From Spirochaetota bacterium (lineage in GTDB: Bacteria; Spirochaetota; UBA4802; UBA5550): 64,000 nucleotides of DNA. The DNA is taken from NCBI GenBank assembly GCA_025457915.1, contig JALOTL010000002.1, positions 62,001-126,000 on the forward strand, read 5' to 3'. Shown here piece by piece: positions 53,831 through 58,312 of this stretch. The position numbers were made by a program, and so were the translations under genes. The number at the start of each line of letters is the position of its first letter. Within the stretch, counting starts at the first letter, position 1. A model generated the notes under the pieces. That model was given only the letters and a program-made list of their open reading frames with translations, was not told the origin of the DNA and did no database searches.

Positions 53831-53863
53831 TAAAAGCGGCGGGTCATCCCGCCGCTTTTTTTT
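53831..53863 (+). terminator. intrinsic terminator of groES-groEL
   Basis: A stem AAAGCGGCGGG/CCCGCCGCTTT with loop TCAT followed by eight T. Confidence 0.93.
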
Positions 53864-53988
53864 GTCATAAGGGCCCGGCCTGTTAAATTAAATACAAGCT
53901 TATACATTTGAAAGAAAAAGTTTAGAATTTATTTAATTTTTTACCGATGATATCATGAGTCCTGAAAAAATAACAAAAAAACAAGCAA

Positions 53989-54873
53989 ATGACCGTCGAT
54001 AACCCAATAATTCTGCCAAACAAGCTCAGGGATCCTTTTCTGTTTGAAGAAGTCATAGATATCCAGGAAGGGATTTACAGGAATTCTGTGATCGACCTCT
54101 CAAAGATTTCCTTCATCGAACCATATTCAATGATATCCCTTCTGCTTCTCGGGAAGAACCACATCAGAAGCAAGGGGGAAAAGATCAAAATGATAAACAT
54201 CCCCATTTCGATACATCAGTATTTCATCAGGATGGATTTTTTAAAAACGGGGATATTCGAGGTTTCAGAAAAAATCAACAAGGATATGCTTCTTAAACGA
54301 AGCCCCCTGAGCAGGAGGATCATTGAAATTACCGAGATCCCGAACAAGGAAAGGGAAAGCATAGTGGTGATTACGGACGTGATTTCCCTTTTCAGGAAGA
54401 GGGCGTCTAACATACTGAAATACTGGATATCGGACAGGATAATAGATTATTTCGTCACGGTGATATCCGAACTGTGCCAGAATATATTTGAGCACAGCCT
54501 GGATTCGGGCTATCTTGCCATGCAGACGTATTCTGTCGGCAAGGAAAACATCTTCAGGCTGGTCATATCGGATTCAGGCATCGGGATCAGGAGAAGTTTC
54601 GAAGAGAACATCAACGTCGAATACTCAAGCCCTGCGGGATTGATGGAAAAGGCGATATTCACCCCCATATCGAGTAAAAGGGAGTTCGGGTACGGGCTTT
54701 GCCAGGTAAATGAAATAGTCGAAAGACTGAGGGGGACCCTTTTTATACGCTCGGAAAACGCTTCCATTACGGCGCTCTATCACAGGAAAAACAAGGGCGC
54801 GCCTTTCCTGTTCCTTAAAAATAACCTGAGTGTTTTTTGCGGCACGCAGATATCAATATCGTTGGGCGGATGA
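53989..54873 (+). CDS. STAS-like/GHKL ATPase fusion protein (anti-sigma-factor kinase-like)
   Basis: A 294-residue protein in two parts. Residues 1-115 or so look like a STAS-type domain (VIDLSKISFIEPYSMISLLLLGKNH). Residues 140-294 are a GHKL ATPase domain with N box ELCQNIFEHS, G1 DSGIGIRRS and G2 EFGYGLCQV, as in SpoIIAB/RsbW-like protein kinases; there is no HisKA helix. The combination is that of partner-switching systems, here in one chain. It starts a tight operon with a STAS-like/winged-helix protein 9 bases downstream. No ribosome binding site is obvious at this ATG. What it acts on is unknown. Confidence 0.8.
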   Translation: MTVDNPIILPNKLRDPFLFEEVIDIQEGIYRNSVIDLSKISFIEPYSMISLLLLGKNHIRSKGEKIKMINIPISIHQYFIRMDFLKTGIFEVSEKINKDMLLKRSPLSRRIIEITEIPNKERESIVVITDVISLFRKRASNILKYWISDRIIDYFVTVISELCQNIFEHSLDSGYLAMQTYSVGKENIFRLVISDSGIGIRRSFEENINVEYSSPAGLMEKAIFTPISSKREFGYGLCQVNEIVERLRGTLFIRSENASITALYHRKNKGAPFLFLKNNLSVFCGTQISISLGG

Positions 54874-54882
54874 ACCGGGGAT

Positions 54883-55434
54883 ATGGAAGTCAACGTATCA
54901 AAAATAGCGGGCGAGCTGAAAATCAAAACGCCCGACCTGATTACGAGGTCGATCGGCAGGGCCTTTTACGAAAAGGTCAGGAAGCTCTTGCGGTTAGCCG
55001 GTAGCGGCGAAACGGCGATTTTCGATCTTGAAAGGATCGTTGTCATGGATTCATCCTTCATAGATGAATTTCTTGTGGCAAGCGTCGCCGACACTATGCG
55101 GCTTGAACCGGACTGTTTTATTAAATTGAGAAATATATCCCCCATAAGCGAAATTAATATTGACTTGGTTTTCAGATCCTATTCTAATTATAAAAATAAA
55201 AGGATAGCCGTGATCACGGACGGCATCTGCCAGAATAACAGTTTTTATATTGGCCAGTTAACATCCGAAGAAAGCGATATTGTCGAATACCTGAGGATCA
55301 ACAGGTCAGTAAGCACCGAGGAGATTTCAAATTTTACCGGGACCGGACTTTCTGATATCGATCAGATTATGAACGGGTTATTCGCCCTCAGAATCGTCAA
55401 GCGGGAGGCGCCGGGATTGTTCTTCGCAGTCTGA
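54883..55434 (+). CDS. STAS-like (DUF4325-type) and winged-helix fusion protein
   Basis: A protein of 183 residues. The N-terminal half fits a STAS-like fold of the DUF4325 kind: AIFDLERIVVMDSSFIDEFLVA, with MDSSF at the switch position. The C-terminal third looks like a winged helix (SDIVEYLRINRSVSTEEISNF, then IDQIMNGLFALRIVKRE). A STAS-like antagonist fused to a DNA-binding module would allow direct control of transcription by a partner switch, a layout I do not know from described systems. Function is inferred from the fold match and from its position after the GHKL protein. Confidence 0.65.
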   Translation: MEVNVSKIAGELKIKTPDLITRSIGRAFYEKVRKLLRLAGSGETAIFDLERIVVMDSSFIDEFLVASVADTMRLEPDCFIKLRNISPISEINIDLVFRSYSNYKNKRIAVITDGICQNNSFYIGQLTSEESDIVEYLRINRSVSTEEISNFTGTGLSDIDQIMNGLFALRIVKREAPGLFFAV

Positions 55435-55452
55435 TATCAACGAGATAAAAAT

Positions 55453-55920
55453 ATGAAGGCTGCTGATAAAAAGCAAAACAGGCTTAAGGATGACAGCCTT
55501 TTTGGACTGCTGTCCTCATATAAAAGCAACAATACCTTCATCCGGATAATGATCTCAGAAAAACAGGATTCTATAATCATTCAGATATCGGACAATCCGG
55601 CCAAATGGCTTGACCTCGGGGTTGAGAAACCGTCAGATTATAAAAGCATCAGGCGACTTGAAATCGGTACGCACAAGATATCACTTAAATATCTTTGCCC
55701 CGAGCACCTGGTCAAGGCCCTGGGTCCGCTCCTCGGGATCGACCTCCCGATCGACAGGGTTGAAATAAACAACAATCTTGCCGGGGGAGGGTGCCTGGCA
55801 TTGAAAACGTCCCTGAAATATAAGGGCAGGGTGCTGCAGGGCATTAAAAAGCTCCTTGGAATGAACCCGCAGAAAAAATACGAAATTTTAGAGAAAAATC
55901 TGTCAGAGAACCAGGAATAG
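55453..55920 (+). CDS. cytosolic protein of unknown function in the STAS/GHKL operon
   Basis: 155 residues, not recognised. It has no signal peptide or membrane span. Predicted alternating beta and alpha parts: TFIRIMISEKQDSIIIQISD, RRLEIGTHKISLKYLCP, and a Lys-rich C-terminal helix. A single glycine-rich GGG turn (NNLAGGGCLALKTS) is visible, but no catalytic motif. It starts 18 bases after the STAS-like/winged-helix gene and ends 2 bases before the next gene, so it belongs to the same transcript. Confidence 0.65.
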   Translation: MKAADKKQNRLKDDSLFGLLSSYKSNNTFIRIMISEKQDSIIIQISDNPAKWLDLGVEKPSDYKSIRRLEIGTHKISLKYLCPEHLVKALGPLLGIDLPIDRVEINNNLAGGGCLALKTSLKYKGRVLQGIKKLLGMNPQKKYEILEKNLSENQE

Positions 55921-55922
55921 TA

Positions 55923-56957
55923 ATGCCGGAACAAAACCAATCCATCAACGATTTATCCCGAATGGTGGACATCTCCCTCAAGTATACGGGAGGCGACCTT
56001 GAAAAGGCCAAGAGCATGGCAAGCGGCCAGTATGACGATACGACTGTTATAAAGGCCAGGTTTCTGGTCCAGGAAAAAAAGCATTCCGGATTCTTTATAG
56101 TCTTCATAAATCACGACAATGATTTTATTTCCAGTCTCAGCTCCTATATTTCCGATAACCCTGGTATGTTCGAAAAGGTCAGGATATTCGACGACTGGAA
56201 GACCCTATACAAGGATATCAAAGCGCTTTCGTCCTCCGAGAAGGCACTTGACACGCAGGACTTCGCCAGTTTTCTCATCGCCTCGTTCATAGGGTTTGAT
56301 ATTTTTTCAGATGTTAAATCAAAGGATCTAGGCGTCCTTTCAAAAGCCGTGAATGAAATTATAGGCAGGTCCTATAACGCCAAAAATGTTCAATCTCAGA
56401 TTGAATTGGACGTCACGAGTTCCCTGACGATGGAACTCGCCGGGATAAGGATACAGATCCCCGGCTCGGCCGGATCTCAGGTTTCGGAAATAACGGCCGA
56501 AGCCCTTTCCAGGGAAGATGAGCTGATAAAAAAAATCGAGAGTGAAGCGGAATTCATAATTGAAGGAAAAACCATTGTTTCCCCCGTCAGGGGCAAATAC
56601 CTGAGCGATATTTCATCCGGAGAAAAAATCAAGGTGCTGCTGACCGGCGGGGACCTGATAACGGAAAGAATCCTCAAGCTTCTGAACGCCTACGATATAT
56701 CAGGGAAGCCCGGATCGGTGACCGGCAGGGTCAAAGCGAAAATACCGATGGAAAAGGGCGGTTATATCGTTTACACCGTGGTAGCGAAGGGGGTCCTGGC
56801 CAAGCTGATAGAAGAGGAGAACGTCAAGATACAGACCGATGTCGTGACCCATGAAATCGAGAAGGAAGAGGGAACGGACAACAGGCTCCTGATCGTCATG
56901 GGGATCCTTGTCGGACTTATAATCCTGGCAGGCATCATCCTGCTGCAGATGCTCTGA
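55923..56957 (+). CDS. tail-anchored membrane protein of unknown function
   Basis: A 344-residue protein whose only membrane segment is at the very C-terminus (LLIVMGILVGLIILAGIILLQ), so it is a tail-anchored protein with its bulk in the cytoplasm. The N-terminal 30 residues (LSRMVDISLKYTGGDLEKAKSMA) look like a small helical, UBA-like module. The central part has a beta-rich stretch (EAEFIIEGKTIVSPVRGKYLSDI). It starts 2 bases after the previous gene. It may place the STAS/GHKL complex at the membrane; that is an inference. Confidence 0.65.
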   Translation: MPEQNQSINDLSRMVDISLKYTGGDLEKAKSMASGQYDDTTVIKARFLVQEKKHSGFFIVFINHDNDFISSLSSYISDNPGMFEKVRIFDDWKTLYKDIKALSSSEKALDTQDFASFLIASFIGFDIFSDVKSKDLGVLSKAVNEIIGRSYNAKNVQSQIELDVTSSLTMELAGIRIQIPGSAGSQVSEITAEALSREDELIKKIESEAEFIIEGKTIVSPVRGKYLSDISSGEKIKVLLTGGDLITERILKLLNAYDISGKPGSVTGRVKAKIPMEKGGYIVYTVVAKGVLAKLIEEENVKIQTDVVTHEIEKEEGTDNRLLIVMGILVGLIILAGIILLQML

Positions 56958-56959
56958 CG

Positions 56960-57853
56960 ATGAAATACCGGATTATCCCATCGGCCGTCCTGGCGCTGAT
57001 CCTTACCGTCCCGGACCTGGCGGCGCAGATGCCGGAGTGGAAGTTTTTCAGGGACAGGGAGGGTAACAGGTATTATCTTGATCTCAACGGAAAAATTTTT
57101 ATAACGGATGATATCACGCATGCATACAGGGCCGTTTCACCGGAAGGTATAGATTATTACAAGAATTCCGGCCTTCGGCTTCTTAAAGAACACCGCAAGG
57201 CGGAGGCCCTTTCCATGCTGAAATCGATTATGGCCCTGCCATGCGACAATGAAAGAATCTGCGCCGCGCAGCGTGAATCATCAGCGGCAATCAACGAAAT
57301 GAAAAAAAGGGAGGGAACAAGGTTCCCGGTCTATGAAAAGCAGGCCTCTCTTTTATTCTTCAAAACTGGCAGGAATCATTATCTGACCGACGATGTCCTC
57401 ATGTATTCACTCAGGATCCCGTTCCGCACAGTGGTCATCAGGAGAAGCCTGCGGGAAATGGTGGACTACATGCATACCGGGCTTATGTGCGGGATAAAAA
57501 AGGATGATAATACAGGCGGCAATTATGATATGCTGATCGGGATAGACGCGGAGAGGTTCCGGGGCAGGATAAGCGGTCTTGCCGAGCTTGAAAAGAACTG
57601 GAGCAACAATCTCGGGTATGACGGCGCGTTAAGGCGCGAGCTTGAAAGGACGGATTCCGGCGTCATGTATGTTTTTGAAAGCAGGAGCGAGCCTTATTTT
57701 TCAGGCCTGGAAAGGATCTGCCTGAACGGAAACAGCGGTTATTGCATAAGGATAGTAACTTCCAGGAGCAAAAATGCGGGCAACGAGGCTGATATGATGG
57801 AGATAATACGCGGGTTCAGTTTCATCAGGTCTGAAAGAAAAACCGGGAATTGA
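56960..57853 (+). CDS. secreted protein of unknown function, last gene of the STAS/GHKL operon
   Basis: A 297-residue protein with a signal peptide (RIIPSAVLALILTVPDLAAQ). The mature part starts WKFFRDREGNRYYLDLNGKIF and has a TPR-like helical stretch around residues 60-115. The last 100 residues (AELEKNWSNN, FSGLERICLNGNSGYCIRIVTS, IIRGFSFI) form a beta-rich end without a named match. It contains four scattered Cys. The gene starts 2 bases after the tail-anchored protein gene. The operon thus ends with an exported product. Confidence 0.7.
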   Translation: MKYRIIPSAVLALILTVPDLAAQMPEWKFFRDREGNRYYLDLNGKIFITDDITHAYRAVSPEGIDYYKNSGLRLLKEHRKAEALSMLKSIMALPCDNERICAAQRESSAAINEMKKREGTRFPVYEKQASLLFFKTGRNHYLTDDVLMYSLRIPFRTVVIRRSLREMVDYMHTGLMCGIKKDDNTGGNYDMLIGIDAERFRGRISGLAELEKNWSNNLGYDGALRRELERTDSGVMYVFESRSEPYFSGLERICLNGNSGYCIRIVTSRSKNAGNEADMMEIIRGFSFIRSERKTGN

Positions 57854-58312
57854 TCATCCGCGGTACACCATGGCAATCTCTTTGCAGTTGTCCTTGTTGG
57901 CGCAGTTGCTGCAATCCTTCCAGATTTTTTCCGGCAGTGATTCCCGTTCGACTTCATCGAAGCCGTTTTTATCGAAGAATTCAGGTGAATAGGTCAGAAC
58001 GAATATTTTACTTTCGCATGATTGGCTGATTTTTTCTATCAGGGCCTTCAAAAGCACGGATCCCACTCCTTTCCTGGAATGTTTTTCGATTACGCCGAGC
58101 GAACGGACCTCTTTCAGTCGTTCCCCGTAATTGTAAAAAGATATAACACCGATAATGTAGCCGTTTTCCTCCGCGACTATGAAATTATCCAGCGATGACA
58201 GGATTTCATCCTCCGTCCTTTCCAGGATCAGTCCTTTCCTCGAATAATGGGATATGATTTCGAGAATGGACGGGATGTCCCGCTCGCCTGCTTTTCTGGT
58301 TTTAATTTTCAT
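57854..58312 (-). CDS. GNAT N-acetyltransferase (short ArgA-like)
   Basis: A GNAT fold protein of 152 residues. The acetyl-CoA site is visible in RSLGVIEKHSRKGVGSVLLKALIE. The C-terminal segment LPEKIWKDCSNCANKDNCKE with three Cys is the pattern of short N-acetylglutamate synthases found in many bacteria, so a role in arginine biosynthesis is plausible. The substrate is not proven. It is convergent with the operon before it; its stop is adjacent to that of the last operon gene. Confidence 0.8.
   Translation of the reverse strand: MKIKTRKAGERDIPSILEIISHYSRKGLILERTEDEILSSLDNFIVAEENGYIIGVISFYNYGERLKEVRSLGVIEKHSRKGVGSVLLKALIEKISQSCESKIFVLTYSPEFFDKNGFDEVERESLPEKIWKDCSNCANKDNCKEIAMVYRG

Follow-up and report, generated by a model that had tools for sequence, protein, structure and literature searches.

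A CapK/CapS-type gene pair of one spirochaete order heads an operon behind a sigma-28-like promoter element

Introduction

CapK, a kinase of HTH-STAS-GHKL architecture, and its substrate CapS, a STAS-winged-helix protein, were described by Chambers et al. (EMBO J, June 2026; PMC13373217) as a pair in which CapK, once activated by single-stranded DNA (ssDNA), phosphorylates CapS at Ser54, leading to dissociation of the CapS dimer and derepression of the adjacent immune operon. A bacterial immune operon lies downstream of the two genes in 348 of 443 cases, and non-immune neighbours (such as yegP) have also been noted. The pair responds to DNA damage; the N-terminal HTH of CapK is dispensable, and the ssDNA site contains an aromatic residue (W68 in CapK and F54 in VapK), which CapK requires for its interaction with ssDNA (PMC13373217).

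Described here is a five-gene operon (g1 to g5), from an order of uncultured spirochaetes, that begins with a ‘CapK/CapS-type’ gene pair. It lies in a 64,000-nucleotide stretch of DNA, which is termed the ‘window’.

Organization and conservation of the operon

The five genes, with gaps of 9, 18, 2 and 2 bases between them, all lie on the forward strand (Table 1). A strong terminator sets the upstream groESL operon apart from them, and a convergent gene begins at 57854, directly past g5, so that g1-g5 can be regarded as a self-contained unit. The gene positions and spacings of the initial annotation were all reproduced from the open reading frames, as was its observation that the operon contains neither a sigma factor nor a phosphatase gene. 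That absence applies to the operon and not to the genome (3.66 Mb), which encodes FliA and SpoIIE-type (PP2C) phosphatases in trans; the latter account for 43 matches, 42 of them over the cut-off and many inside long open frames, and a trans-acting phosphatase is thus available. The same genome gives 20 HATPase_c_2 matches beside the 43 of SpoIIE type, which amounts to a large partner-switching repertoire.

Table 1. Features of the operon and its upstream region (positions in the window)
Feature	Position	Strand	Length	Description
Intrinsic terminator of upstream groESL operon	53832-53859	+		12-bp stem followed by a T run
Sigma-28-like promoter element TAGAATTTATTTAATTTTTTACCGATGAT	53923-53951	+		Boxes TAGA and ACCGATGAT; conserved two-box element 5' of g1
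g1	53989-54873	+	294 aa	CapK-type STAS-GHKL protein, predicted serine kinase, without N-terminal HTH
g2	54883-55434	+	183 aa	CapS-type STAS (DUF4325)-winged-helix protein, predicted kinase substrate
g2 Ser58 codon	55054-55056	+		Candidate phosphorylation site; invariant in 27/27 orthologues, aligned with CapS Ser54
g3	55453-55920	+	155 aa	Conserved cytoplasmic protein, no family assigned
g4	55923-56957	+	344 aa	Tail-anchored LIC10486/DUF4899-type protein, N-terminal region cytoplasmic
g5	56960-57853	+	297 aa	Exported, probably periplasmic protein; signal-like N-terminus, no curated family

Among 198 genomes sampled across the phylum, g1 was found in 32, corresponding to 32 of the 37 genomes of the same order and to none of the 161 other spirochaetes; 34 of 39 relatives carried g2. 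The genes g1-g2-g3-g4 are collinear in all 26 g1-bearing relatives examined for synteny, and the gene order of the operon is kept far beyond chance. The fifth gene is attached more loosely: it lies directly after g4 (within ~100 bases) in 17 of these 26 relatives and 428-651 bases away in 4; the remaining 5 showed no g5 within the stretch examined around the locus. The linkage originally drawn for all five genes therefore holds for the first four and is weaker for g5. Every g1-bearing relative has g3, and so does a family (f5) that retains g3-g4-g5 and lacks g1-g2, which indicates that the downstream module can work without the switch; the locus thus consists of two modules that can be separated, g1-g2 and g3-g4(-g5). 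The complete unit is apparently an order-specific trait that has been vertically inherited.

A scan of named genome contig records for relatives of g2 gave Spirochaetes MAGs and two DUF4325-like matches in one Chloroflexi MAG. The latter (L127 and L128), its sole matches outside the spirochaetes, carry a DxSF[IV]DE motif.

Relationship of g1 and g2 to CapK and CapS

A CapK/CapS reference was assembled from three plasmids, one of which encodes the published CapS (WP_001567865.1), and was aligned and used for profile-profile comparison. The g1 profile matched that of CapK (97.7%, E 1.6e-12, 264 columns) and the g2 profile matched that of CapS (94.5%, E 8e-8, 154 columns), against 0.3% and 1.7% for negative controls drawn from unrelated families and 1.0% for an RsbW-like protein of the window genome (a weak control, consisting of one sequence). 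On the basis of this near full-length homology, g1 and g2 are a CapK/CapS-type pair, and the arrangement that the initial annotation had presented as a ‘new layout’ is of a kind already published (PMC13373217).

The GHKL domain of g1 (Pfam HATPase_c, E 3.5e-8) is found in 27 of 27 orthologues, and its ATP site is complete: E161, the N-box asparagine N165 (27/27), H169, the DSG(I)G motif and G234/G236 are invariant among orthologues, and a C-terminal GTQ motif is conserved. The N-terminal region, which yields a weak Pfam STAS_2 match in 10 of the 27 (best E 0.0071), can be aligned to the STAS portion of CapK, in agreement with the STAS/GHKL fusion that had been proposed by eye. The start of g1 corresponds to about residue 56 of CapK, with the alignment beginning at CapK residue 65, and the N-terminal HTH is absent. 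At the column of the ssDNA-site residue Trp68, the orthologues of g1 display phenylalanine (12 of 27), cysteine (8) or leucine (7, including Leu13 of the window protein). An aromatic residue is thus not conserved at this site, which makes ssDNA sensing by g1 appear less likely.

The same column bears upon the possibility that g1 and g2 constitute an ssDNA- or DNA damage-responsive CapK-CapS pair governing an unrecognized defence or stress module encoded by g3-g5. Homology to a pair that responds to DNA damage, together with the known occurrence of non-immune neighbours (PMC13373217), would accommodate such a role; however, searches of g3-g5 against PADLOC defence models produced only chance-level matches, and a single-copy, strictly vertical and order-wide pattern of retention is unlike that of mobile defence genes. 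A role of this type is improbable.

The DUF4325 domain of g2 is likewise found in 27 of 27 orthologues (best E 2.4e-9). In its predicted structure (pLDDT 95.5), winged helices of the VIA list superpose on the last 57-60 residues at Z about 11 and rmsd 1.0, so that the fusion of a STAS-like DUF4325 region to a winged helix is upheld. A Foldseek search with the same model returned no match at E<=0.001 and the VIA list covered the winged helix only; the assignment of a STAS domain to g2 accordingly rests on profiles and not on a fold match. Profile searches of PDB sequences gave a match to ‘Escherichia VapS’ (9z7o, E 2.4e-4) and a weak one to a STAS-winged-helix protein of the ‘MarR family’ (9z72), and, within the literature library searched, no paper mentioned both DUF4325 and STAS. 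The candidate phosphorylated residue, which had initially been placed in the ‘Ser55 region’, is corrected to the invariant Ser58.

The residues through which CapS contacts DNA (N145, K151 and the glycine pair of the wing tip, GG169-170) align with columns that vary among the 27 g2 orthologues, with none conserved, and the recognition helix of g2 is net negative in 21 of the 27 (mean charge -1.7, as compared to +2 to +3 in CapS). DNA binding by g2 is doubtful because these contacts have been lost; of the earlier proposal of a ‘direct kinase to DNA-binding-STAS switch’, the pairing of a kinase with a STAS-winged-helix protein is retained. The differences between this pair and CapK/CapS leave untouched the case for g1 as a kinase and g2 as its substrate.

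These observations also weigh upon a CapS-like repressor, in which unphosphorylated g2 would bind the promoter of its own operon and phosphorylation by g1 would release it, such that the signal derepresses the operon. The domain order and gene adjacency shared with CapK-CapS, as well as the canonical fold of the g2 winged helix, argue for such a mechanism, whereas the altered contacts and helix charge argue against it, as do the little room for an operator at the g1-g2 and g2-g3 junctions, the frequency of TTAA palindromes upstream of g1 (narrow form, 1 of 27 versus 0.86 expected; wide form, 0 of 27) and the promoter-like appearance of the one element that proved strongly conserved upstream. 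Autorepression by g2 is possible, at somewhat less than an even likelihood. One copy of TTAAATTAA, at 53883-53891, is identical to the published narrow palindrome of CapS and occurs nowhere else in the window, where chance alone would give 2.4 copies; it is not conserved in relatives and was dropped as a candidate operator.

Products of the downstream genes

The predicted structure of g3 (pLDDT 84) has no clear fold match; an aspartokinase regulatory domain, the best candidate when compared to the PDB using Foldseek and VIA-align, reached only Z 5.3 over 71 residues and was rejected as not meaningful. The g4 protein matches the NCBIfam family LIC10486_fam (E 1.3e-11) over residues 27-341, nearly its full length, with a score against that family (NF047678) of 44 bits that is far under the Leptospira equivalog cut-off of 500; DUF4899 was found in 16 of 41 relatives. 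A single, very hydrophobic segment (KD 3.2 at residues 323-341) is located at its C-terminus. The g5 protein has an N-terminal signal-like segment, followed by a mature part that opens with a conserved AQMPxW motif, and gave no curated family match in searches of Pfam and NCBIfam. The tail-anchored and secreted products named by the initial annotation are thereby recovered, and its statement that the last three genes belong to no known family remains correct for g3 and g5 and is superseded for g4.

A second paralogue of the g4 family is encoded in the same genome (L086:4630-5706, minus strand; G000:C23), where it adjoins a response-regulator-like gene and lies near a divergent open reading frame with GHKL-like motifs as judged by eye. 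Another genome, probably that of a Leptospira and strongly matched by LIC10486_fam, has its g4 homologue immediately downstream of a HATPase-like gene (L087:4854-6710, minus strand; Pfam HATPase_c, E 4e-4). The latter was considered as a relative of g1 and rejected, since a single-sequence comparison gave no profile similarity.

A promoter element shared with flagellar genes

A de novo motif search 5' of g1, scored against block-shuffled controls, identified a block (TaCCGATnAT) well over those controls, and a second box at a fixed distance from it (T at -20 in 17 of 21 and A at -17 in 18 of 21). The combined pattern, TnnA-N15..17-nCCGATn[AT] (also as ...nCCGATnA), occurs as a strict match in 14 of 27 regions upstream of g1, compared with an expectation of 0.59 and a single reverse-strand match; this count and those that follow are drawn from phylogenetically related genomes and do not represent independent events. 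Flagellin promoters were considered as a positive control and set aside, the five main flagellin genes of the window genome having no CCGAT element upstream, and fcpA and flgM were used instead. In the window genome the element lies 41-42 bases before fcpA (flagellar coiling protein, identified at E 3e-58). Across the set it precedes fcpA in 12 of 29 upstream regions (0.67 expected; none on the reverse strand) and flgM in 13 of 20 (0.63 expected; 5 of 20 on the reverse strand), 29-30 bases before the gene in most relatives.

The sigma-28 consensus is TAAAGTTT-n11-GCCGATAA (PMC2859248). Judged against a sigma-28 (FliA) promoter with a TAAA-like -35 box and a CCGAT-like -10 box 15-16 nt apart, the element upstream of g1 conforms, with a -35 box (TnnA) that is looser than the consensus; it looks like a sigma-28-type promoter, putatively used by FliA. 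The initial annotation had listed no promoter, and so missed this element common to g1 and flagellar genes. Membership of the regulon is uneven, since the element is missing upstream of the five flagellins and of the window genome's own flgM, and the pattern is insufficient by itself to delimit a regulon, since a genome-wide scan returned 83 matches that fall mostly inside coding regions. A shared promoter is, moreover, no proof of a function in motility.

Elsewhere in the order, flgM (L270-L288) displays a textbook sigma-28 promoter (for example, TAAAGAATTGACAAAAATTnCCGATAT) ~29 bases before the start, which could be used to define the FliA regulon of this lineage. Exported proteins encoded at L163:455-1141, L164:526-1377 and L241 have TnnA-N16-nCCGATnAT 21-68 bases upstream and are possible new members of a flagellar regulon.

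The presence of a sigma-28-like promoter ahead of the operon, with FliA encoded elsewhere in the genome, raises the question of an anti-sigma role in trans, in which g1 would bind a sigma factor of the FliA/SigB group and g2 would serve as the anti-anti-sigma, thereby tuning, in the manner of the sigB operon, the sigma factor that acts on their promoter. The combination of GHKL and STAS chemistry is that of RsbW/RsbV. However, FlgM, the usual inhibitor of FliA, is encoded in 29 of 30 relatives (the window genome included), the similarity of g1 to CapK extends along the entire protein, and none of the relatives examined has a linked sigma gene; a role as an anti-sigma system seems quite unlikely.

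Discussion

On a modest balance of probability, the operon comprises a switch of the CapK/CapS kind that is fixed in one spirochaete order, is placed behind a sigma-28-like promoter and would control an envelope module. From the homology, domains, invariant residues, gene order and shared promoter element that are observed, we infer a scheme in which the operon would be read from that promoter, and probably co-produced with late flagellar genes; the STAS-GHKL body of g1 would sense a signal and phosphorylate g2 on Ser58; and this modification would break the STAS contact made by g2, which a trans-acting SpoIIE-type phosphatase may subsequently reset. The output would control the neighbouring module of g3, tail-anchored g4 and exported g5. 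Output through protein contact (of g2 with g3/g4 or another partner) is considered slightly more likely than repression of the CapS type, given that the DNA contacts of CapS are not retained in g2. A further proposal, to be regarded as tentative and rather unlikely, is that a CapK/CapS switch was domesticated into the flagellar late-gene regulon, with g2 off DNA and passing the phosphorylation signal to a tail-anchored/periplasmic module by which the periplasmic flagella or the cell envelope would be tuned.

The published role of CapK/CapS is the control of immune operons, and the homologous pair found here is fixed in the chromosomes of an order without immune cargo and without a conserved ssDNA-site aromatic residue. 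The spirochaete pair thus provides a natural setting in which to ask which signal the kinase senses and whether its STAS-winged-helix partner needs to bind DNA. The sigma-28-like promoter, in turn, gives an initial clue to the function of three spirochaete protein families, among them one related to the LIC10486 family of Leptospira.

Comparison with known systems

The closest described system is CapK+CapS, with which the locus shares the placement, at the start of an operon, of a STAS-GHKL kinase gene directly before one for a STAS-winged-helix protein; the profiles are homologous over their full length, and the N-box asparagine and the phospho-acceptor serine are retained. It differs in that g1 has neither the N-terminal HTH nor a conserved ssDNA aromatic residue and g2 does not have the CapS DNA contacts; in that the pair is chromosomal, order-wide, vertically inherited and located behind a sigma-28-like promoter; and in that the downstream genes encode envelope proteins, with no match to a defence family, rather than immune proteins. 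The VapKSC toxin-antitoxin system (PMC13373217) similarly contains a STAS-GHKL kinase without an HTH and a STAS substrate able to bind protein, and g2 matches VapS; in contrast to that system, the operon has no PIN/VapC-type gene and g2 has a full winged helix. The g4 protein resembles the LIC10486 family and DUF4899 in the extent of its match and its C-terminal hydrophobic anchor, and departs from the former in scoring far below its cut-off. Finally, RsbW/RsbV and SpoIIAB/SpoIIAA share with g1 and g2 the pairing of a GHKL serine kinase with a STAS substrate that bears a serine at the DxS position, whereas in the spirochaete operon no sigma factor or PP2C phosphatase is linked and both partners are fusions.
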